Shown here one piece after another: positions 27,782-63,870 of a DNA stretch of 64,000 nt. This DNA is from Heterohyrax brucei (taxonomy: Eukaryota > Chordata > Mammalia > Hyracoidea > Procaviidae), in assembly GCA_028571685.1 (NCBI GenBank), contig CM053154.1, positions 312,501 through 376,500 of the forward strand, read 5' to 3'. The notes below the pieces were generated by a model. It made no database searches, was not told where the DNA came from, and saw only the letters and a program-made list of their open reading frames with translations. Each line of letters begins with the position of its first letter. Position 1 is the stretch's first letter. A program made the translations under genes and the position numbers.

Positions 27782-30091
27782 ATGGTTAAGCTGGGCTGCA
27801 GCTTCTCTGGGAAGCCAGACAAAGACCTCCTGGAACAGGATGGGGCTGCCATGGACAGTGTCCCTCTGATCAGCCCCCTGGACGTCAGCCAGCTCCAACC
27901 ACCTTTCCCAGACCAGGTGAGGAACCTGAGCCAGTTGGGGGGCCGGGGGTTCACTTGGTTCTCCTGGAAACAGAGGGGTGTCAGTGAGGTTCATTACATG
28001 TGCCCCCCCCCCCCACAGTGTACTAAGATCAGTGGGGAAGGGTTACAAACTGGCTGAAATCCCAGCAGGCCCAGTTGGCTACCAGCGTCCTGTCTCGACA
28101 TGTGCAAATGGAGAAGCAGGTGCAGGAACGTGAGTGTTCCTACAGTGGCCAGCAGAGGGCCCCCTGGAGACGAGCCCGCTGACACTGGGCAGGCGGGCAG
28201 CAGGCTCCGCGGGGCCACCCCCAGCCCTCACACCCGCTGGCTCTGTCTTCCACAGGTGGTCATTAAGACCCAGACGGAGTACCAGCTGGCCTCTCCAGAG
28301 CAGCCCAAGAAGTTTCCCGATCTGGAGGCTCAGAAGCTGGCCTGCAGCCATCCCGAGGAAGGGCGCAAGGTGACCACACACTCTTGCCCGCAGCTACTGC
28401 TATGAACCATGAGAGGCAAGGAGGAGAGGGGCACCAGGAGCCCACGGGTGCCCAGAGGGTTAGGTCAGGCTGTGAAGGAGAGTCCACAGTCGGTCAGTCA
28501 CATCAGTGACAGGCATGGCATGTGATTGCCCTTCTGCCTGTGGGAACTGTGTTTTCCTGAGTGATTCCTAGGAGGTTTTCTCTACAACTCAGTGCTACTT
28601 TTTCCTCTGTGATTTTGGCAAATATTTTCTCCATCTTCATTTTATCTCTTAGTTTTATCAACATGCTCTTTTTGTAAGCTTTTTCACTTTTAAGTAGTAA
28701 AATGTACTCCTTTTTTCTATTAATTCCATCATTTCTTAAAACAGTGATCCAGACCCATAGAAGCCTGGCGAACCCAAGGCACCGCTTTCTAGAGTTCATA
28801 CGTGGATATGAACCACAAAAAAACAACCCATCGCCATAGTCGATCATGACTTGTAGCGACCCTACAGGACAAAGTGGAACTGCTCATGTAGAGTTTCTAA
28901 GGAGCTCCTGGTGGATCTGAACTGCTGACTTTTTGAGCAGCTGTAGTACCTGACCACTGTACCACCAGGGTTTCCAGTGTAGGCCAAGGCGTCCACTGTC
29001 ACCTGGGGCTTTCTCCAGGGCCAGATGTGGGGCTGGGCGGAGCCACCAGCTCAGGCTTGCTGGCTGGGAGTCTGAGTGCCGGCCCTAACCCATCAACACT
29101 GCAGGCTGTCTGGGGTCCTGTGTGTGGCTGAGGTCCAGCCCCGGATGCCCCAGCCTGTGAGGGACTTGGTGCAAGAAGTCTGGCCCCTCATTACAAGCCC
29201 CCAACCCCAGTAACAGGTTCCTCTTTCCTGCCCCGCAGCTGCCCACAGCCCGCACAGTCGCCTTTGCTGTGGCACTCATGGGCTGCGTCCTAATCATGTA
29301 CAAAGCCATCTGGTATGACCAGTTCACCTGTCCAGACGGCTTCCTGCTTCGGGTAAGCAGTCCCAGATGTGCAGGGGAATGGGGTGACAGCAGATACTGT
29401 CCTAGCAAGACCACCGCCCACACCTCTACCCCACGCGCCCCCTGTGGGGCTGAGAGGGGTCTCGCCTTGTGGCTGTGCCAGAGCACTCCATCTGTGGCTC
29501 TCCTGCCGTCCGTGCACAGCCCCCCTTCCTGCCACACAGTTACTCCCCATCCTCCCTTTCCTGGGGCTGGATGGCCTCCAGGCAGAGTGCAGGGAGGAAG
29601 CAAGGACTGGAGCCATGGGAAGGGGCGCCTCCCCTCCTCCTCACCGCCCCAGAGAACTGCGGGAGTGTCTCCAGTTCCAGCGAGGACCTGATGGGGGAGG
29701 GCCTCGCTTTCCCTGGGGTCTGGCCTCCTGTCCCGCTCCTGCCTGCTGCTGCCACCCCCCAGTCCTGACCAAGCCCCTACGCTGGACTCCCCATGCCCAG
29801 CACAAGGTCTGCACCCCGCTGACCCTGGAGATGTACTACACGGAGATGGACCCTGCCCGCCACCGCAGCGTCCTGGCAGCCATTGGGGCCTACCCGCTGA
29901 GCCGCAAGTATGGCACGGAGATGCCTGCCGCGTGGGCCGAGAGCTACCGCGCGGCTCTCAGGGACAGCTCCAGAGGGCCCACCCAGGTGGCAGCGGCGGC
30001 CACTGAACCACCAGAGAAGCCACCAGCCAAGGATGAGAAAGAGGAGCCCCGCGAGGCGGCTGGGAGCTCAGCGCCCCGTTTGCTGGAGTGA
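27782..30091 (+). CDS. CALY: CALY, calcyon neuron-specific vesicular protein, four coding exons, 217 aa
   Basis: Calcyon is a single-pass neuronal vesicle protein that binds clathrin light chain, promotes clathrin-mediated endocytosis and was first described as a D1 receptor-interacting protein. Coding exons are 27782-27916, 28256-28369, 29239-29352 and 29801-30091, with GT/AG borders and phase 0 throughout. They give 45+38+38+96 = 217 residues, the human length. Residues 1-9 are MVKLGCSFS; SVPLISPLD and the QTEYQL motif (exon 2) are conserved. The membrane span is about residues 89-108 (ALMGCVLIMYKAIW), followed by YDQFTCPDGFLLR. The last exon begins HKVCTPLTLEMYYTEMDP and ends in an Ala/Pro/Glu-rich tail. 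The ATG is 20 bases after an acceptor (27760-27761), so a non-coding first exon lies upstream. The frame is intact and orthology is clear. Confidence 0.96.
28816..28975 (-). mobile_element. AfroSINE, antisense, in CALY intron
   Basis: The minus strand reads GGAAACCCTGGTGGTACAGT and later GTCCTGTAGGGTCGCTACA, with a diverged B-box. It lies between CALY coding exons 2 and 3. Confidence 0.85.
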
Positions 30092-30722: not shown

Positions 30723-31619
30723 CAAACGTTCAAGTTCACTGAGGCTCTGCTGCTCGTATTTGTCCTCAGTCGGCCCAGCTGGCCTTCTGCCCCCTTGTGA
30801 TCAAGGGCCAGCATTGTGGCCCCGTTGTCCAGAGGGACCCCAAGGATCTCAGAGCATTGCAGCTTTGGAGGGTTGGAGGGAGCAGCTGGCGGGCCTCATG
30901 CAGATGGACACAGACAGGCAGGACCATGTCGTGGTTTGTCCCTTCCCATCCGCCCATGATGGGGTGAGCTGACACCCACACGGTGGTACTGGATCCTTCG
31001 GGGTGTCCCCAACTGCCTGCAGCCTCCGCTGTCAGATGCACCCCGCTGCCCTCTGCGTCTGCCAGTGCATCTCCCCTACTTGCCCACACTTCCGCCCCAC
31101 CATGCGCACAGAAGTGAGCAAATGAGGAAGTGACTGAAGGAGCGGTCTCGGGGCAGGGTGGCAGGAAGACAGCCCCCCCAGCTGCATACTGGGCTCCCCA
31201 GCCTGCAGGGAGGGGTGAAGGTCCCCAGGAAGCGTCTCCTCCACCCATCCAGCCATCCCACCTCAGCCCAGACCCTCCACCTGGGTCCATGGGCTCTACC
31301 CTGGGGAGAGGGTGAGCACTGTTCACTGCCTGAGGAGGGCCTTGGGACTGAAGCCTTGGGGCAGGTGGGAGGGACAGTGAAGGAGCCCAGAGGACAAGAA
31401 GAGAGCGAGTCAAAGCCAACAGCCTGGCTGCTTGTTGTACTGCTGGCCAGGGGATGACCGTGTACCCACAAGCAGGGCAGGGCACAGATCTCACATGGAG
31501 CAGGAAGTGGTAGCCCCCACCATTAATACCAGCACAGAAAGCTGGTGAGCAAGTCCAGGTAATTGACTGCAGCATCATGGGCCCCCCTCTGGGAAATTGT
31601 GGGTTCAGGCTAGGCACAG

Positions 31620-32335
31620 GGCAGTGAGCCAGGGTCCAGACCACACACAGCAGAGTGAACCGCAGTCCAGGCCACACACAGGGGAGGTGAACCAGGGTCC
31701 AGGCTGTGCACACAGGGGAGGTGAACCAGGGTCCAGACTGTGCACGCAGGGCTGGTGAACCAGGGTCCAGGATGTGCACACAGGGGAGGTGAACCAGGGT
31801 CCAGACTGTGCACGCAGGGCTGGTGAACCAGGGTCCAGGCTGTGCACACAGGGGAGGTGAACCAGGGTCCAGGCTGTGCACACAGGGGAGGTGAACCAGA
31901 GTCCAGGCTGTGCACACAGCGGAGGTGAACCAGGGTCCAGACTGTGCACACAGGGCAGGTGAACCAGGGTCCAGGATCTGCACACAGGGCAGGTGAACCA
32001 GGGTCCAGGATCTGCACACAGGGGAGGTGAACCAGGGTCCAGGATGTGCACACGGGGGTGAACGAGAATCCAGGCTGCACAGGGGGGTGGTGAACCAGGG
32101 TCCCGGCTGTGCAGCGAGGTGGTGAACCAGGATCCAGACTGCCCCTGGTGGGGTGGGGTAAACCAGGGTCCAGGCTGCGCAGCGAGGTGGTGAACCAGGA
32201 TCCAGACTGCCCCTGGTGGGGTGGGGTGAACCAGAGTCCAGGCTGCACACGGGCCGGTGGGGAGTGAACCAGGGTCCAAGCCAGATGCAAGGTGGTGACC
32301 CCCTGTCCATGCTGAATGTAGGGCAGGTCCCAAGG
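31620..32335. repeat. 34-bp minisatellite (VNTR), about 21 units
   Basis: The unit is GGTGAACCAGGGTCCAGG followed by CTGTGCACACAGGGGA. The period of 34 is not a multiple of 3 and the unit has no stop on the minus strand, so all three minus frames stay open (514, 277 and 242 codons) with Cys/Trp/Pro-rich repeats. The same peptide appears in each frame, which marks it as an array and not a gene. Confidence 0.9.
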
Positions 32336-36137: not shown

Positions 36138-37532
36138 TCACGCGGAGCTGGACCCAAGCCACTGGTGTGTCCTCAGCTGCAGGGAGACGTACTGGCAGAA
36201 GCACAGGCCGTGGTCCAGGTGGCCCTCTGAGCCCACATCCCCACAGGATGAGAAGTGGGAGCTGGCCAGGCAGCAGGCATAGTCAGAGGACCACTGCCGC
36301 AGGGCCACATGGAACATGGCCTCAGCATGGGGGCTATCCCCGGGGAAGGCCTCCAGGAAGGCCTGCCTGCAGTCCTCCAGCAGCACGTACACAAAGCTGA
36401 GCTTGTGGAGCGTCTGGCAGCCCATGAGCACGGAACGCCTTGCCAGGAGAACGTTGGCCTCCCCGACACACAGCGACAGCTCCCGCATCTTCCGCTTGGA
36501 AAACCTTCTGAACCAGCACAGAACACCCACCGCAGAAACCAGGAACAGTGGGCACAAGAACATGGTGACGGTGAGGAGGAGGAACCGCCATGGTCTTGGG
36601 TCCGCTGTTTCCACAATCCCAGCTATGACGAGCGAAACAGCAGATGCCATGGACAGCAGAATCAGGCAGACACCCACTGTCACGCGGCAGCCCAGGTACC
36701 GGAGGCAGGACCTGGGGGACGGGACCCCGTTCACCATGCCTATGACCCTCTTATACACCTCAGGGTCGTCCAGGACCACCCGCAGTGGGTCAGGCACAGT
36801 CAGAGTGCTGAAAGTCCCCACCTGCCATGAGGGCACGTTGTCCTCGTTGACGCAGCGGAGGGTCATCAGCGTCTTCCCGCTGTAGAGAGAGGAGAGCTGG
36901 ACCGGGGCCAGGGTGGAGCGCTGCAGCAGGTGGCTGGGCGTGCAGAGGGCCCGCGCCACCTTGCTGTAGAAGCAGCTGTCGGCCGCCTCCAGGTAGGTCA
37001 GGTGGTTGAGGTGCAGGGGGACGCGGCAGGGCCGCAGCAGGACGGGGATGACCGGCTTTCTGTCCAGGCAGTGGCGGAAGAGCGAGAGGTTGGCCTCCAG
37101 GAGGCACCAGCGGCTCTGCACGAAGTCCTGGCTCAGGACCAGCAGCACCTTCTGGCTCTGCTGGATGCACTCGGCCATGTTCTCGACGATGTTCCGCCCC
37201 GGCAGGAAGTCCCGCTCGTGGAGGCAGACCCGCAGGCCGGCGTGCTCCTCCTCCAGCCGGCGGATCAGCTCGTGGGTCCAGGTGGCGTCCAGGCTGCTGT
37301 AGCTGACAAAGAGGTGGAACTTCTCGCTGGCCTTCAGGGGGGGGATGGCCAGGGTAGCACTCTCCTGCAGGGCCCAGTCCCCCTGTGTCTGCTCTTCCTC
37401 CCCGTGCTCCTCCTCCTCCTCTCCCTCCTGCAGCACTGGGTGGGAATCCATGCCAGAGGCTTCCTGCCCGCAGTGTCTAGGAGGCTGCCCTCTGAGCCCC
37501 ACTTCTTCTGACTCTGCAAAATAGCCCAACAT
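36138..37532 (-). CDS. TIR-domain protein with two C-terminal membrane spans, single exon, unnamed
   Basis: One uninterrupted frame of 464 codons (stop TGA at 36140-36138). ATG at 37532 has a weak context; ATG at 37451 (residue 28) has G at -3 and +4 and is the likelier start, giving 437 aa. Residues 36-49 are Glu-rich. Residues 72 to about 200 form a TIR domain: box 1 FVSYSS (75-80), box 2 CLHERDFLPG (103-112) with the BB-loop Pro, box 3 FVQSRWC (137-143), and Glu146 in WCLLE, where NADase TIRs keep their catalytic Glu and TLRs also have Glu. Box 2 resembles TLR2-type TIRs. Two hydrophobic spans follow at about 283-307 and 317-340, then a C-terminal domain of about 120 residues (GEANVLLARRS, SFVYVLLEDCRQAF). 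There is no signal peptide and there are no LRR or Ig domains, so it is not a TLR or IL-1 receptor; SARM1 and TIRAP lack this layout. Intactness in repeat-rich DNA suggests selection. I do not recognise a named orthologue. Confidence 0.85.
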   Translation of the reverse strand: MLGYFAESEEVGLRGQPPRHCGQEASGMDSHPVLQEGEEEEEHGEEEQTQGDWALQESATLAIPPLKASEKFHLFVSYSSLDATWTHELIRRLEEEHAGLRVCLHERDFLPGRNIVENMAECIQQSQKVLLVLSQDFVQSRWCLLEANLSLFRHCLDRKPVIPVLLRPCRVPLHLNHLTYLEAADSCFYSKVARALCTPSHLLQRSTLAPVQLSSLYSGKTLMTLRCVNEDNVPSWQVGTFSTLTVPDPLRVVLDDPEVYKRVIGMVNGVPSPRSCLRYLGCRVTVGVCLILLSMASAVSLVIAGIVETADPRPWRFLLLTVTMFLCPLFLVSAVGVLCWFRRFSKRKMRELSLCVGEANVLLARRSVLMGCQTLHKLSFVYVLLEDCRQAFLEAFPGDSPHAEAMFHVALRQWSSDYACCLASSHFSSCGDVGSEGHLDHGLCFCQYVSLQLRTHQWLGSSSA

Positions 37533-38059: not shown

Positions 38060-38215
38060 CACCAAACCCACTGTCACCAAAGCAACTCTGACTCATAGTG
38101 ACCCCTAGACAGAACAGTACCGACTTTCCAAGGGGTGCCTGGAGGATTTGAACCACTGACCATCTGGTCAGCAGCTGTAGCACTTAACCACTGTGCCACA
38201 CCACCCCCAGTTATT
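38060..38215 (-). mobile_element. AfroSINE, antisense
   Basis: The minus strand reads GGTGTGGCACAGTGGTTAAG and GATGGTCAGTGGTTCAAATC (B box), then ACTATGAGTCAGAGTTGC. Confidence 0.85.
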
Positions 38216-42795: not shown

Positions 42796-43590
42796 GATGC
42801 CTAGGAGAGGGAAGATTCTAGTTAGCTGGAAATACAAACGGTGCAGAGAGCAGGGCCCCCAGAGCCAGGCGCCAGGCGGAGGGAGCGGCTTGGCCCAGCC
42901 AGCAGCTGAGGTCTTGGGGAGTCCTGTGCTGCCTTAGCACTAAGCTGGGGGGCCCTCCCCACTCCTGCCGAGGGTTGGCATTCTCCTCCCTGTATCAGGT
43001 CCTCTGAACTGGACCCATCAGCCTCCTGGTCCACTCCCTGGGTCCCTTAGTACTGTGGGAGGCTAGGGTCTCCAGCGGCACCATGGAGAGGCAGGCAGGC
43101 TGCCTTTCCCATGCTGGTGGTGCATTCTGGGGGTTCCTCCACCTTCCTACTGTGGGCCCTCTCACACAGGAGCTGCTTTGTGTCCAGCAGCTACCATCAC
43201 AGCTGCCCTGTCCCTGTACGCACGGCACCCTCGGTGCCCTTCTGAGGGGCGCTGGAAGAGATCTGTGCTTAAACCTCTTGGATAACGGCTGAGCTGCACA
43301 CAGCCCCTGGTGGCAGCCGGTTCCAGCACACTGGCGCAGGCACAGGCATCCACAGTCCTCAGTCCCCCTTCCCTTGTTTTCCATTCACCTCAAACTCTGG
43401 GCATGCTAGCACCCCCCCACAGGAGCCCCTCCACCTCACGGCCTGGACTCAAGAGGCAGACTCCCGACCCCATGTCTGTGTTCCCAGCACAACCTAGGGC
43501 CAAGGAGGGCCTTGCCACCAAGGTGCCAGGGCAGAGCTTGCCTGTGGGAGAAGGGGGCGTAAAGACAACAGGGAGTCATGGGAGCTGGGG
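42796..43590. other. No gene recognised
   Basis: GC-rich sequence before the G-rich array; nothing identifiable. Confidence 0.35.
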
Positions 43591-43594
43591 AGGG

Positions 43595-43872
43595 GAGTCT
43601 GAGGGCCAGAGGGGGGGTCTGAGGGCAGGAGGGGGGGTCTGAGTGCAGGAGGGGGGTCTGCGGGCCGGAGGGGGGTTCTGCGGGCCGTAGGGGGGTCTGA
43701 GGGCAGGAGGGGGGGTCTGAGTGCAGGAGGGGGGGTCTGAGGGCCAGAGTGGGGCTCTGCGGGCCGGAGGGGGTCTGAGGGCTGGGGGGGGGTCTGCGGG
43801 CCGGAGGGGGGTCTGAGGGCCGGAGGGGGGCTCTGAGGGCCAGAGGGGGGGTCTGAGGGCAGGAGGGGGGGT
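43595..43872. repeat. G-rich 19-20 bp minisatellite, about 14 units
   Basis: The unit is GGGGGGTCTGAGGGCCGGA with variants. Every unit carries a run of 4-7 G plus GGG and GG runs, so the plus strand could form many G-quadruplexes. Minus-strand frames read as Pro-rich repeats and are not genes. Confidence 0.9.
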
Positions 43873-44319
43873 GTTTCTCCACATCCCATGGTCTGTGAAG
43901 GAGTCACACGCCCGTGCATGTGGCCAGCTGCCCCCAGGGCTGCCCATGCTAGGGGTGCTGGGGACACTAGTGATCACAGTTCCAGCAAGGGATCTGAGCC
44001 CTATGCTCATCCTGCTGCTGAGCTACCCAGCCACACGCTCCCCATCAGGCTGCCTGTGCTCACGGCCCTGGGCCCGGTGGGAGCACCGTGGGCGCTCACA
44101 GCCCCACATGTAGAGGGAGACCTGTGGGTAAGAGGCCCACCTGGCCCAGTACCTTGGCCCAGTGTGGAGGCTGGTGTTTGCGGGGTCGCCCACCTGGGGA
44201 AGAAGCCAGGCTGGGTCAGAAGGAGCCGTAGCAGCACAACCAAGATGGAAAACACGGCCTCACAGGTCCCGGTGCCAGAGCCGGGGGCAGCTCACCCCCC
44301 CAGGAAGCCGCGGATGTGT

Positions 44320-45090
44320 GCGGGGGTGTACATGAGTGTGTGGGAGTGCACATGACTGTATGGGAGTGTATGTCAGTGTGTGGGAGTGTATATGAGTGCA
44401 TGGGCGTGTACGTGAGTGTGTGCGAGTGCACATGACTGTATGGGAGTGTATGTAAGTGTGTGGGAGTGTATGTGGGTGGGAGAGTGTATGTGAGTATATG
44501 GGAGTGTACATTACTGTGTGGGAGTGTACGTGGGTGAGGGAATGTAGGTAGGTGTGGGAGGGTATACAAGGGTGTGGGAGTGTATATGAGTGTGTGGGAG
44601 TGTAGTAAGTGTGTGGGAGTGTATATGAGTGTGTGGAACTGTGTGTGAGCATGTGGGAATGTACACGTGGGGTGCATATGAATGTGGGGGTGTACATGAG
44701 TCTGAGTGTACGTGAGTCTTGTGAGTGTACATGAATGTGTGAGTGTATATGAGTATGTGGGTGTGTATGTAAGTGTGTGGGAGTGTATGTAGGTGTGGGA
44801 GTGTGTAGGGGAGTGTATGTGAGTATGTGGTGGTGCACATCACTGTGGGGGAGTGTCCGTGGGTGTGTAGGAGTGCTTGTATGTGAGAGTGTACATGTGT
44901 GGGGGAGTGAACACGTGTGTGTATGGGAGTATATGTGAGCTTATGTGTGTCTGTGAGTCTGAGTGTGTGTGTCTGCGTGAGTCTGCATGTGTGTGCATGC
45001 AGTGTGTAAGTGTCTGTGTATTTTTCTGTGCGCTCACATAAGTACATGAGTGTGTGAGTTTGTGTGTCAGTGTGTATGAGAGAGATGGAA
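44320..45090. repeat. GT-rich minisatellite (GTGTGTGGGAGTGTATATGA type)
   Basis: About 770 bp of 16-26 bp variant units. The minus strand gives long Thr/His/Pro/Tyr frames without stops because the plus strand is C-poor. Confidence 0.88.
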
Positions 45091-45204
45091 GATGGGGAGA
45101 GGTGAGGATGTGACAGGAAAGCCACGAGGTGCTGATGCCAATGACACCTCACTCAAGGAAGAAGAGGAAGAAGGTCACTTGGGGTCCCCACAGAAAACAA
45201 CCAG

Positions 45205-45660
45205 CATAGAGTCCCCCATGGACAGCCAGCACAAGGGTCCCCCATGGACAGCCAGCACAGGGGTCCCCCAAGGACAGCCAGCACAGGGGTCCCCCAAGGA
45301 CAGGCTGCACAGGGGTCCCCCACGGACAGCCTGCACAGGGGTCCCCCATGGACAGCCTGCACAGGGGTCCCCCAAGGACAGCCAGCACAGGGGTCCCCCA
45401 AGGACAGGCTGCACAGGGGTCCCCCAAGGACAGCCAGCACAGGGGTCCCCCACAGACAGCCTGCACAGGGGTCCCCCAAGGACAGCCAGCACGGGGGTCC
45501 CCCACGGACAGCCAGCACGGGGGTCCCCCACGGACAGCCAGCACAGGGGTCCCCCAAGGACAGCCAGCACAGGGGTCCCCCAAGGACAGCCAGCACAGGG
45601 GTCCCCCAAGGACAGCCAGCACAGGGGTCTCCCAAGGACAGCCTGCACGGGAGTCCTTCT
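45205..45660. repeat. 26-bp minisatellite (VNTR), about 17 units
   Basis: The unit is CCCCCAAGGACAGCCAGCAC followed by AGGGGT, with AAGG/ACGG/ATGG variants. The period of 26 leaves frames open on both strands (plus: 211, 204 and 107 codons; minus: 157-166 codons). The same peptide cycles through every frame, as expected of an array and not a gene. Confidence 0.92.
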
Positions 45661-45669
45661 GCCTGGACT

Positions 45670-47740
45670 AACCATGGGCTCTCATTTGCAATGTGCGGTG
45701 GACAGGCCGTGGCAGGAGCTATGTTGAGGAAGGTGTGCGGGGACAGAGCCGCTTGTGTGTGCCCATTTCATGTCTTCACGAAAGGCCTCATTCCAATCCT
45801 CTGGGGAAGGCCCCGGCTCTGCCTCAGGTCCCTGGCTGCCACCACCCTTACCTCCTGAGGGCCCACTGCCAACAGCTTGCAGATGAGAGCTAGTGGCTGG
45901 TCCAGGCAGAAGGGACCCTTTTCTGCCTGTTACCTGTGGGCTGGCCTGCTGGGGAGAGGCCTCTCTTCGAGGACTTAGGGCCCAGGATCTGGGAAGAGCA
46001 ATCTCAGACCTTAGGACTCTCAGGTCCAGCCGTGAGCCAAGAAATTCCCCAAGGGGGTTACATCTCTGAAGTGTCCAACTCCAGATAGAGCACTCTCTTG
46101 GCTCCCCAAGACAGAGGGTCAAGTCTGTCCTGCTCAGGGCTGAGTCCTGAGGCCTGGCCACAACTGGCAGCAGCCCCTGGAGTTTCATAAATGAAGGGAT
46201 TTTACATAGCACACCATGAAACTGCAGAAGAGTGTGTCCATTCCAGACGAAGGGGCTCCCGGGGATCGCGGCAAGGCAGGAGCTGTCCTCTCCTGCCTCT
46301 CAGCACCCCTCCAGCCACCCGCCCCCAGCTCTGCTGATCAGCCTCCTGCAGCAGAGGGCAGAATTGGGAGGAGGCTGGGATGAGATGGGGGCTCCCCTCC
46401 CTGAGCTCCCAGGCGCTCTCCCAGGAGCAGGCCCCATGAGGCTCTGCCCCCCACTCCCTCTGCCTGAGCCCGGGGTTCTGAGGTCTGAGGTCCCAGCCAG
46501 GACAGGGGGAAAGTGAAGGCTTAGCGGCACTCTGACCCCTAAATTTCTCTACACTTTCTCTCTCTCTCCCCTTGCCATTCTTTTACCAGGCATTAGAAAC
46601 TGGGAGGGCAGGGAAGAAGCAGGCTAGTGCCTCTGGGCAGTGAGGGAGTCCTAGGAGGGTCAGCTGGTCCCTTGGGCCCACCTGGAAGCACTCTCTGCTC
46701 CCTCCCTCTTTACAGAGTCCTGCAGGCTCCCTCCCGTGTGCCCACCTCTAGTCCAAGTCCGGTCTCCTGTGCCCTGCCCCTAGTCCCTTGAGTTTCATGA
46801 ATGAAGCAGTTGGATGGCCCTGCCTCTGGCCCTCCACGTCCAGCCCAGGCCCTGTGTTCCAGCCCTAGTCCCTCCAGGTCCTGCCCCTTTCTCCAGTCCT
46901 GGCTCAGCCAGGTACCTGGGCCCAAGTCCTGTCCCCAGTACCCTGTCCCTGCACCACCCCCCATGCATGGCACTTTCCAGAGTCCCTCCAGTGTGTTGCC
47001 CCGGCCCAGTGCTCAGCTGCACAGAGTGGCTGCCCGGAGCCAGGAGCTAGCTTTAACCAAGTTGAAGGGTGCTGAAACAAGAGACCCAAGGGCAGTCCTA
47101 GGCGTAACAGGGGCACTCGGGGCTCCAGACACTGGCTCGGCAGCTTCGGCCAAACAATTATCCGAGGCCTGGCCAAAGGGAGGTTGGGGAGGCATCCTCC
47201 ACGTGAACAGCCCAGCGTCCCCATGGAAGCGCTCTGCGGTGGGCGCCATTGAGTGGCAAGGGCACTGTACTGACTCCGCAAGCGGGACACCCTCCAAGTC
47301 TGCTCCCCAGTGATGTCTTAAAGGACCTTTGATGGGGCTTCTGCAGGAAGCTTACCTGCAGAGACGCTGTACAGAGCCTTTGACAGGGCAGCAGCTGCTG
47401 GGGCTGCCAGCAGGTACCCGGGGGAAGGAAGAAAGGAGTGGACCTTTGAAGGGGAAGCCGCTCAAAAACAGCAAGACTGTGCCAGGCCCACAGGCCGGGG
47501 AAGAGGTCTTCTCGACAGTCACTCAGCATCTGAAGGGGTTGCTTTCTCAGCGCTGTGCCCTCATGTACACGACAAAGAAACCACGAGGTCCCCAGAGCAC
47601 CCTGGGCACTCGGGTGTGGGCCTTGCTGGCAGGACCAGGTCCTTGGCTGGACTTCGGGCCACATTCCACTTTGGGAGTCTCCCAGCATGGTGCTCAGGTC
47701 AGGTTCTGGCCTGAACGCCCAGGGTCCCAGGTGGGCACGG
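45670..47740. other. No gene recognised
   Basis: GC-rich, mostly unique sequence. Several 75-176 codon frames on both strands, none with domain resemblance. Confidence 0.4.
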
Positions 47741-48488: not shown

Positions 48489-48823
48489 TTTGCAGAGGAG
48501 CTGAACCCCTGGCTCACCGCACTGAGTCTAGGCCTTGGCAAGCCACTCCTGCCCCCGAGCCCTGGCCGTCACAGACCCTTCAACTCCTGCATCTCTCGAG
48601 GGCCAGTGTCCTGGGCAGGTGTTTTCAGAAACCAGCTCTGCTGGTTCAGGGACCAGCAGAACTGTGGCCACAGGGTCCCTGTACAGGGGCCTAGTTTACC
48701 TCCGCTGTCTCTTGAAGGTGGGACTGTGGCCATAGGGTCCCTGCACCAGGGCCTGGTTTATCTCCACTGCCTCCTGAAGCCCTCTGGAACACGTAAGCAG
48801 CAGCTGACCTCAAAAAAAGCCTC

Positions 48824-49450: not shown

Positions 49451-49539
49451 AAAAAAAGCCTTGACTGCCCCCGTACCTGCTCTGGATTCTGGGCCATGGG
49501 AGGGGCATGAGACACCAACTCACTGCCCCCATCAGCACC

Positions 49540-49720
49540 AGCTCAGAGTACCGGCCCCCACCGTGACCGGTCAGGGTACCGGCCCCCACGGTGACTGGCA
49601 CCAGCTCAGGGTACCGGCCACCACCGTGACTGGCACCAGCTCAGGGTACCGGCCCCCACCGTGACCGGTCAGGGTACCGGCCCCCACCATGACTGGCACC
49701 GGCACCGGCTCACGGCCTCT
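49540..49720. repeat. Short minisatellite (GGTCAGGGTACCGGCCCCCA type)
   Basis: About five units of roughly 28 or 35 bp, alternating between a form with CACCAGCTCAGGGTACCGG and one with GACCGGTCAGGGTACCGG. Confidence 0.75.
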
Positions 49721-50487
49721 CTCCATGTCAGCACCAGCCCACACTGCCTGTGGGAAATGGTGACTGGAAGACACTGACACCGGAAAGAGATGCCCTTATC
49801 CTCTGCTTTTGCACCCCTGCTTTTGAAGGCTGCCCTAGAGCCCCGGTCCTTACCAGGTCAGCTAGCACATTCATTGAACATCACCCTCCAATTTCTTATT
49901 TTGACATTTTTTTTGTCCATAGAAAAGTTGAAAGATCACTACAGCAAACTCTTGTGCACTCTTTACATGGTCTCCCAAATTATTAGTATTTTTAGGCTTC
50001 TCATACACACTTCTTCTGCTGAACTGTTTGGAAGTAAGCTGCAGGCATCATGACTCTTTCCATGCATTTTTGTGGAGAGCCACAAAACCGCCCTGGATGC
50101 CCAAGCACCATGACGTCACCACATCAGCACCGCTGCCCAAGAAGGCAGTGTCTTTAATCCCATCACTCCATAATGCCTTCTTCAGCTTTTGTCCATCTGG
50201 GACCCAGTCACAGCCCATGTTCAGAACGGATCTATGCTTCTAGTCCTCTCTGATCTAGAACCGGCCACCTCCCTCTGATTTTCCATGGTATGGCATGAGT
50301 GTATGCATGTGTGTCTGCACACGATGCACACATGTACACTATGTGTGGTCACTGCTCAGTTGCATCATTGCATGTGTGTATACACAAGTGTGCCTGTGCA
50401 CCTGTGCAGCGCGTGGTATAGTGCAGTGAATTGCTTGATGTGGCCATTGTCAAGGCTTGAATATCTCCCCCCAAATATGTGTATCAG

Positions 50488-53639: not shown

Positions 53640-54205
53640 TGTGTGCATGGGACTGTATGCCCTGTGTCTGTGCACATGTGTGTTCGCGTGTGGGTAGCTG
53701 TGTATGTGCACATGTGTTCATGTGTGGGTAGCTGTGTCTATGAATATGTGAGTACGTGTGTGGGTAGCTGTGTCTGTGCATGTGTGTGTTTGTGTGTGGG
53801 TACCTTGTGCCAATGCACGTGAGTACCTGTCTCTGTGCCCTTAGAGCTGCACATGTGTGTGTCTGCATATTACACTTGTGTTTCTGTGCACAAGACGTGT
53901 TTGTGCATATGCTGCCTGTTAATGTGCATATGTGATTGTCCTGGGTGGGTGCACATACGTGAGTGCTCTTTGTGCACACGTAAGCACGGTCATGTGTATG
54001 CATCTGAGAGCACCTGTATGAATCTGCATGTATCTACACGTTCATGTCTCACACATGTGAGTGTGTCTGCACGGATGAGCATCACTGTCTGGGCCCACAT
54101 GTGTGCTAACATGTTTGTGAAGCATGGATCTGCTCAAGTTTACTGACACTTGAGTGTCCATTTATCTGCACACGTGTGCCCACTCCCTCAACTGTGTGTG
54201 CACGT
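53640..54205. repeat. GT-rich minisatellite (GTGTGGGTAGCTGTGT type)
   Basis: Variant units around GTGTGTGGGTAGCTGTGTCT with decay toward the right end. Open frames on both strands are by-products. Confidence 0.75.
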
Positions 54206-61859: not shown

Positions 61860-63870
61860 TGAAACTGTCTCATTAGCATGATCCCCTCAAAAAACGGAAG
61901 AAAAATTGCCATTGTGCTAAGTAATAGGAAATTCTTCTGGAGAACTCCTAAGGACACTGGTTTCGGGGTAGCTTTGCAGGCACCGTTCACACCCCTGGTC
62001 ACAAACCCAACCCGCCACGTGTGGGCTGTCACAACCAACAACAGCACTGCCGCGTCCGGCCTCGTCAATCTGGGATCCAGGCAGATGGACTGGGTGATAG
62101 GCTCGGTCTGTCTGCTGCTCATTGGCTCCAGTCACCTTCCTGCTAAGGTGTCGACCTCTTATGCAGGCTCGCCCCCTGTGACTCCCACACTGTCCCCTTC
62201 CTGGCGCCCCTACATGACGACGCATGTGAGCTTTCCTGGTGGACTCTGTCTGCTGCTGAGGAGCAGAGGGGGCGACAGAGTGCCTCCCTGCAAGCTGTGG
62301 TCACTGAAGACTCCAGGCCTATGCCACATCACTCCAGTGGCTACCAGGCAAACATCTGGAAGCTACACCCGAGGGTCACAGCCCCCTGTGACCCTTTCTT
62401 GTCAAAAACACAGCAACCACGACTACAACCCACTAACGAAAAATATTTATTTTACACATTCAAAACCAAGTTCTCATGGTGCCCGATGTGGAGGGCCAGT
62501 GCCCACCTCCTCCCTCGGGGGAGTCTCTATCACTGTCCAGAAGCCTTGAGCTCCTGTTGCTCCCGGCGACAGACACTGCCCACCACAGGGTGGAGACTCT
62601 GAAGACAGCGGAGGCCTGGGCCCTGTGCAGACTCGCCGGAGCTGTCTGCCACCTGATTCCAGGGCAGGAAAAGCAGCCAACTGAAACCACGGCTGCTGGG
62701 AGGCACTGTCCCTTGGCTGGTGTCAGGGACCATCAGTGTGTGCTTCTCTTCTTGGTGCTTTTAAACCCCCGCAAGGCACCCGGACCAAAACAGATGGTAG
62801 AGGGGATTCTGGAAGGGAAGGGGTTCTCTCGGGTGACTGCGAACATCACCTGCCGCCACAGCCATCTATGAGCACTTTCCCCTGCGCCAGCCCACCCCCA
62901 TCCTCAGCCCTCCATCCCAAGGGGACCCTCCACACTGCGGGACGCAGCCCAACACTTGCCCTGGGAGATGGGCCTGGAGGGTGGCCTGCCACTGCTGTGG
63001 GCATGGACTCCCTGCTGCACGGTGCAGCCGTCTGGGTCTGAGCACTCTGGCCTTCAGCCTCCTGCACAGGCCAGATCCAGTGACAAAGGGCTCAAGGCGT
63101 GCGCAAGCTCAATTCCCAGAGGCTTGGATTCTTTGGTGGCTTTTCCAATTTGTTAAAACATTTTTCCCAGGATTCAAATTAAAATAAATCTTAACCCAGA
63201 AAAAGCACACTTGATACCAGAAAGACAGGCTCACCAATTACACTGTGACCCACTGGCCTAGTTTCTCCACGCAGGCAGTGCTCCACTTCTTGGGTCTCAG
63301 GCTTTCAAGAACAGAGCACTACAGGACTAGAACATTCCAGCTCCCACCTGCAGCTGACACTGACACCCTGACACAGGTGTCCCCTTCTGAGTGACAGTAT
63401 CATGCGAGTCAGACCCGGGACTCAACAGTCCAGGAGGGAGCACAAGGTCACTGACCTGTGGCTATGGGCCCGCGTTCCCGGGAGCCTGGCTGCAGCCCTG
63501 CTCTCAGTCCCAGGCATGGGGGACGGGGCTGCGTGTCCATCACAGGAGACCTCCATGGCATCTGCTTCTTCCAACTGCTCACCGCACCTCCCCAGGGCTT
63601 CTGCTGACACGGGCACAGTGGCCCCTGGGGTGGCTGGGCTGCAGAGGACAGAGCAGTGAGCAGTGGCCCCTGGGAACTCAGCCCCAGAGCCCTGCCTCCT
63701 TCTAGAAGAGATTCACGGGAAAGAGAGCACGCCTTCTTACAAAAAACCTTAGTATTTTGACAAAATCTGAGTATAATTTCCAGACCACCAGAAAAAAAAA
63801 TTGTTAGTTTGAGGATGTAAGTAAATGTTCATACAATAAATGATATCTTACATAAGTCTATTCATAACGG
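61860..63870. other. No coding gene recognised; possible 3' UTR on minus
   Basis: A 223-codon plus-strand frame (61878-62549) shows no domain. TTTATT in AAATATTTATTTTACAC (about 62440-62456) would be AATAAA on the minus strand, so a gene entering from the right could end here; ZNF511 would have this orientation, but no ZNF511 coding sequence was seen. Confidence 0.25.

Follow-up and report, generated by a model that had tools for sequence, protein, structure and literature searches.

A candidate membrane-tethered TIR protein with a TMEM268-like half, encoded between CALY and ZNF511 in Heterohyrax brucei

To our knowledge, the catalogue of mammalian TIR proteins is regarded as complete with the TLRs, the IL-1 receptors, a few adaptors, and SARM1. 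A long reading frame in the genome of Heterohyrax brucei, in which the boxes of a TIR domain precede two hydrophobic stretches, raises the question of what kind of protein it encodes, what its membrane half is related to, and what it might do. The window, i.e., the whole stretch of DNA that was analyzed, comprises 64,000 nucleotides (C15:312501-376500 of a 3.49-Gb assembly with 62 contigs).

The open frame, its start, and its neighbors

The frame occupies a single exon, for which two extents were distinguished.

36138..37532, minus strand, whole open frame, single exon, 464 codons (ORF translation and genome search)
36138..37451, minus strand, likely true coding sequence from the ATG at residue 28, 437 aa (start context; inference)

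The original prediction of an intact 464-codon frame on the minus strand is exact at 36138-37532, where the frame runs uninterrupted to the stops TGA TAA. Its start was corrected, however. The start context of the first ATG (37532) is weak, and a potential splice acceptor (ttttgcag, G at 37514) follows closely, while the ATG at 37451 (MDSHPVLQ...) has a G at both -3 and +4. Owing to this better context, translation probably starts at 37451 and yields a protein of 437 aa.

Frame length counts as weak proof of coding in such GC-rich DNA and was dropped as a stand-alone argument, since 1 of 300 simulated GC-rich 4-kb sequences reached a 464-codon frame. The gene is far beyond chance because of its domain matches and a third-position GC content (GC3) of 98.5% across residues 67-200. 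When the protein was used as a query against its own genome, at least 15 matches were obtained at E<=1e-3 (28 candidates scored; the match counts are lower bounds). The window TIR gene was the only one matched at full length, while the 14 others all fell inside query residues 60-182, which is the TIR part. The window gene is unusual and real, with one full-length match in its own genome.

Neutral decay of the 437-aa frame was simulated in 400 copies with CpG-weighted substitutions and indels at 1/10 of the substitutions. Intact frames persisted in 102 copies at 1% divergence and in 25 at 2%, while none of the 400 was intact at 5% divergence or more. As no simulated copy survives 5% neutral divergence, the frame has been maintained at least until recently, if not to the present. 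A loss of function dating back no further than 1-2% of neutral change may be compatible with these numbers, and the copies still intact at 1 and 2% would fit a gene that recently lost its function in this species, with the frame open and expression gone. The conserved box residues, the high GC3 of the TIR part, and the lack of intact copies at 5% count against such a loss, which we regard as improbable.

27782..30076, plus strand, CALY (calcyon), left neighbor, four coding exons (tblastn; Pfam Calcyon 8.1e-15)
62742..62810, minus strand, last coding exon of ZNF511, right neighbor (tblastn)
38060..38200, minus strand, diverged AfroSINE-type SINE, ~0.6 kb upstream of the open frame (repeat comparison)

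By tblastn, the TIR gene lies between CALY and ZNF511, as had been proposed, and the remaining ZNF511 exons followed by TUBGCP2 (plus strand) were found beyond the window in L009. Human presumably carries the same CALY-ZNF511 block, and its counterpart at 10q26.3 is taken by us to be subtelomeric. The hyrax block may be subtelomeric as well, since the window starts 312.5 kb into a contig of 98.9 Mb. No paper linking a TIR-domain protein to ZNF511 or calcyon was found in the open-licence literature.

Two AfroSINE-type heads and six tails occurred in the window, while none of 10 shuffles contained a head and none more than one tail, which makes an afrotherian origin plausible. Minisatellite-type arrays, which make up 16 overlapping rows at a score of 150 or more, were located at 31675-32246, 43589-43872, 44316-44804, 45181-45656, 48661-48779, 49532-49738, and 53662-53802. 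Some of them underlie chance-looking long open frames at 30766-32310 (minus strand) and 45092-45858 (plus strand).

The TIR domain and its relatives

36936..37322, minus strand, TIR domain, residues ~71-199, TLR1/2/6/10-like in boxes 1-3 (Pfam, PDB search, Foldseek)

The protein belongs to the TIR domain superfamily, with Pfam TIR_2 (E 6.6e-21, 75.5 bits, cut-off 28) and Pfam TIR (E 8.3e-14, 52.2 bits, cut-off 21.3) both above their curated cut-offs. No Pfam domain besides TIR passed its cut-off in the whole-protein scan. The boxes FVSYSS, CLHERDFLPG, and FVQSRWC as well as Glu146 in WCLLE, all named in the original prediction, are present. The best of 59 PDB sequences at E<=1 were TLR1, TLR6, TLR2, a chain named for both TLR15 and TLR2, and TLR10, with MyD88 weaker. 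The TIR domains of TLR1, TLR6, TLR2, and TLR10 have box 1, box 2, and the box 3 region in common with the window protein, and the BB-loop proline is shared between RDFLPG in the window protein, NFVPG in TLR1, and RDFIPG in TLR2. The BB loop is of the TLR signalling type; structure 1fyx, by its title a TLR2 P681H mutant, marks this proline, which is known for its effect on signalling. Single-sequence structure models were of low confidence (pLDDT 43.8 and 45.0), so that the Foldseek matches are supportive at most, with the TLR1 TIR at E 4.8e-07 and a TM-score of 0.42 by target, and matches to the TLR1 and TLR10 TIRs at TM-scores of 0.40-0.46 by target.

In contrast to the TLRs, the window protein is without an LRR ectodomain, has two spans instead of one, and carries its TIR domain N-terminal to them, so that none of the features of a Toll-like receptor (LRR ectodomain, single span, C-terminal TIR) is found. 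That the protein has no ectodomain had been anticipated, and it agrees with a TIR domain preceding both spans and with the absence of LRR families from the Pfam matches. TIRAP/MAL and MyD88 resemble it in having a TIR domain without an ectodomain, but in a PDB search with the TIR domain alone they matched at E 8.8e-7 and 1e-12, respectively, versus 3.7e-22 for the TLR1 TIR (best 60 of 67 matches at E<=10). TIRAP is membrane-directed and binds lipid peripherally, while MyD88 has a death domain. A metazoan TIR-STING fusion (E 2.5e-9) is alike in joining TIR to another immune module, although its partner is STING and that of the window protein is a TMEM268-like module.

The original prediction had offered a signalling adaptor or an NAD-cleaving enzyme, and the second part was weakened. 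A membrane-tethered TIR enzyme that cleaves NAD as SARM1 does would be in line with Glu146 in a WxxxE arrangement, at a place where the SARM1 TIR presumably also has a Glu. It would further be in line with weak matches to bacterial Cat1 (E 1.6e-4), plant RUN1 (0.0097), and the NAD+ hydrolase AbTIR (0.066) among the best 60 of 67, and we take Cat1 and RUN1 to be NAD-cleaving TIRs. However, Glu146 says little for NADase activity because it is common to TLR TIRs (WCHYE in TLR1, WCKYE in TLR2), the BB loop is TLR-type, and the TLR1 match is far better than those to the enzymes. SARM1 was absent from the 59 PDB sequences at E<=1 and from the best 60 of 67 at E<=10, and the Pfam result of the window protein is without SAM or ARM. 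We give this enzymatic reading a very small probability.

The TIR tree consisted of 15 rows, i.e., the window protein and 14 own-genome loci (L002-L008 and L011-L017; the self locus L001 was left out). While TLR1/2/6/10 gave the best sequence scores, the window TIR remained an unplaced branch of length 1.81 in this tree, in which 6 of 12 inner branches are open, and its highest identity within the set was 37% over 133 columns. Box 2 through box 3 is identical in 25 of 44 residues to L002, by eye a TLR1-like gene within a cluster of three on contig C4. The long unplaced branch and the highest identity of 37% argue against a recent TLR copy, and a recent TLR retrocopy was ruled out by the long separate branch. 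The window TIR is probably an old separate lineage.

Another own-genome locus, L007 (C2:178276754-178277014, minus strand), is a TLR1-like TIR fragment of 145 codons from stop to stop, whose matched stretch is interrupted by a TAG. It groups with L002 in the tree (98/92) and is probably a TLR1-family pseudogene copy. L008 (C12:34.417 Mb) and L014 (C1:63.970 Mb) are TLR-type genes with open frames of 956 and 994 aa, respectively, which pair in the tree (99/100) and which we assume to be possibly TLR11/12/13-like. A scan of viral contigs for relatives gave 62 pattern matches, of which 0 were confirmed.

The membrane half and its likeness to TMEM268

36603..36698, minus strand, membrane span 1, residues ~279-310 (hydropathy; model helix 273-309)
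36507..36593, minus strand, membrane span 2, residues ~314-342 (hydropathy; model helix 313-340)
36141..36884, minus strand, TMEM268-like region, residues ~217-464, intronless (BLASTP, pairwise scores, tblastn, Pfam)
36351..36452, minus strand, best-conserved TMEM268 block, residues 361-394, 14/34 identical to human TMEM268 ungapped (Pfam, alignment)

Hydropathy recovered the two spans after the TIR domain that had been read from the sequence, at residues 279-310 and 314-342, and 122 residues follow them where a C-terminal domain of about 120 had been described. A weaker hydropathy row at 275-294 overlaps span 1. Basic and acidic residues number 3 and 0 at 265-287, 2 and 2 in the loop at 306-316, and 6 and 1 at 341-356. 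With basic residues on either side of the hairpin, both the TIR domain and the tail probably face the cytosol. Pfam matches to UPF0542 and holin were below cut-off and were discarded as hydrophobic chance matches.

The kinship of the membrane and C-terminal half had been overlooked in the original prediction; BLASTP, shuffles, the Pfam match of the tail, and the layout all mark it as TMEM268/DUF4481-like. TMEM268 (C9orf91) was first proposed as a candidate and then tested, with a sequence taken as human TMEM268 as the query. Residues 38-328 of this sequence matched Pfam DUF4481 at E 3.4e-138, in agreement with PMC6748091, where TMEM268 is stated to contain DUF4481.

BLASTP of the window protein against human TMEM268 gave an E of 2e-6, which by our estimate becomes roughly 0.05 when the choice among ~20,000 human proteins is allowed for. 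Given this corrected value, the case for homology is made by several weak tests that agree with each other. The local score of 75 was reached by 0 of 2000 window-shuffled (maximum 60) and 0 of 2000 fully shuffled sequences (maximum 62), and the end-to-end score of 54 compares with a maximum of 34 in 1000 shuffles. Against the TMEM268 of the own genome the score was 69, which again none of 2000 shuffles reached (maximum 60). An hhalign comparison with human TMEM268 gave E 4.8e-5 and a probability of 68%. When human TMEM268 was searched across the whole window, only the TIR gene was returned at E<=0.01 (E 2.45e-4). Among 24,736 Pfam families, DUF4481 was the sole match of the 122-aa tail (E 0.06, profile 142-175), at 13.1 bits versus a cut-off of 25.

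The layout agrees with that of TMEM268. Spans 279-310 and 314-342 are collinear with TMEM268 104-122 and 130-154, and in both proteins two adjacent spans are followed by a conserved C-terminal block, with a GxxLxxLR-like segment before the spans and an FVYxxLExC block after them. TMEM268 differs in being without a TIR domain and in being a separate gene of many exons on C11, and the two resemble each other only remotely, with a score that stays under the Pfam cut-off.

The C-terminal half could also be an unrelated two-span module whose likeness to TMEM268 arose by chance, aided by hydrophobic composition. DUF4481 was absent in Pfam scans of the whole protein, the whole C-terminal half, and four of five shorter pieces, in keeping with its sub-cut-off score, and the genome searches link the two genes in neither direction. 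No TMEM268 exon was among the matches to the window protein at E<=1e-3 (28 candidates scored), and the window TIR gene was not among the 15 candidates of the TMEM268 search. However, shuffles that keep the local composition never reached the observed scores, and the best block lies outside the membrane spans in a collinear layout, for which we hold a chance likeness to be quite unlikely. When the C-terminal half was compared with the TMEM268 loci by tblastn, the FVYxxLExC block appeared at E 4.3-5.1 only. The two alignments also differ, as the Pfam match to DUF4481 is of equal lengths while the pairwise alignment opens a 7-residue gap. Because of the sub-cut-off Pfam score, the differing alignments, and the unlinked genome searches, the half is labelled TMEM268-like and not a DUF4481 member.

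Of the 15 candidates in the own-genome search with TMEM268, 9 matched at E<=10, with eight of them on C11 and a weak one on C13. The 8 matches on C11 (63.459-63.483 Mb) are TMEM268 exons with 74-95% identity to human and ends near residues 36, 72, 109, 158, 195, and 222. With the true multi-exon gene located there, the window gene was ruled out as the TMEM268 orthologue. As the window gene is intronless across the matching stretch, we infer that its TMEM268-like part came via an RNA copy or lost its introns. At C13:94.2 Mb, L026/L027 comprise scattered TMEM268-like pieces with stops between them, probably a decayed TMEM268 copy. On C11, TMEM268 (63.46-63.48 Mb) lies ~3.7 Mb from L006 (67.17 Mb), named TLR4-like by eye; this proximity is possibly relevant to the origin of a TIR-TMEM268 fusion, or a coincidence.

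Possible functions and their meaning

A slight preponderance of the evidence favors a real, intact, intronless gene that joins a TLR1/2-type TIR domain to a remote TMEM268 (DUF4481) relative in a two-pass protein that tunes or sites TLR signalling. With TIR and tail both on the cytosolic side of the membrane hairpin, the protein would present a signalling-type BB loop at the ER, plasma, or endosomal membrane. By analogy, the TIR domain might take part in, or compete for, the TIR-TIR assemblies that TLRs form with TIRAP/MyD88. The TMEM268-like part could place it with integrin or endosomal cargo, as TMEM268 is placed with CD11b and ITGB4. These analogies suggest that the TIR protein, tethered to the membrane close to integrins or endosomes, may serve as an adaptor or modulate how TLR/MyD88 complexes assemble. 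Tuning or siting TLR signalling is more likely than transmitting it alone, because no death domain was found in the protein and a pattern scan gave no match to a TRAF6-type motif. A short TRAF2-like motif, ALQE, occurs at residue 54 and weighs on the other side.

TMEM268 locates to the ER and plasma membrane, and its C-terminal part (residues 104-342) binds ITGB4 (PMC6748091, excerpt). It also binds CD11b and restrains its degradation via the endosome-lysosome route, and mouse Tmem268 knockout worsened sepsis and promoted CD11b loss (PMC11169502, excerpt). Serum cytokines were higher in the knockout, and the authors hypothesize a link to TLR signalling for which they ask further evidence (same paper).

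The cytokine result bears on a further explanation, in which the protein is a dominant-negative decoy. Its membrane TIR would compete with TLR or MyD88 TIRs and damp signalling, while the TMEM268-like part would be an anchor only. Raised cytokines upon loss of mouse TMEM268 (PMC11169502, excerpt) fit a damping role, as do TIR as the sole Pfam domain above cut-off and the lack of a TRAF6-type pattern. However, an intact BB loop suits activators equally, and we consider the decoy unlikely, if still worth weighing.

For the modulator reading preferred here, a description of a TIR plus TMEM268-like two-span arrangement was sought in the open-licence literature, and none was found. A broader proposal, which we put forward tentatively and at less than even probability, is that the gene represents an undescribed mammalian TIR class. 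In this view, TIR and TMEM268 would have been fused long ago, some mammals would have retained the fusion while in human it was lost or has escaped annotation, and the fused protein would physically couple TLR-type signalling to integrin and endosome traffic. Domains fused in one protein often share a pathway, and if the proposal is true, TMEM268 itself would work alongside TIR signalling. The fusion would also be a testable clue for the role of TMEM268 in sepsis and with CD11b (PMC11169502, excerpt). With a membrane-anchored TIR protein outside the known groups, innate immunity would have one more player, and species might differ in their response to infection.
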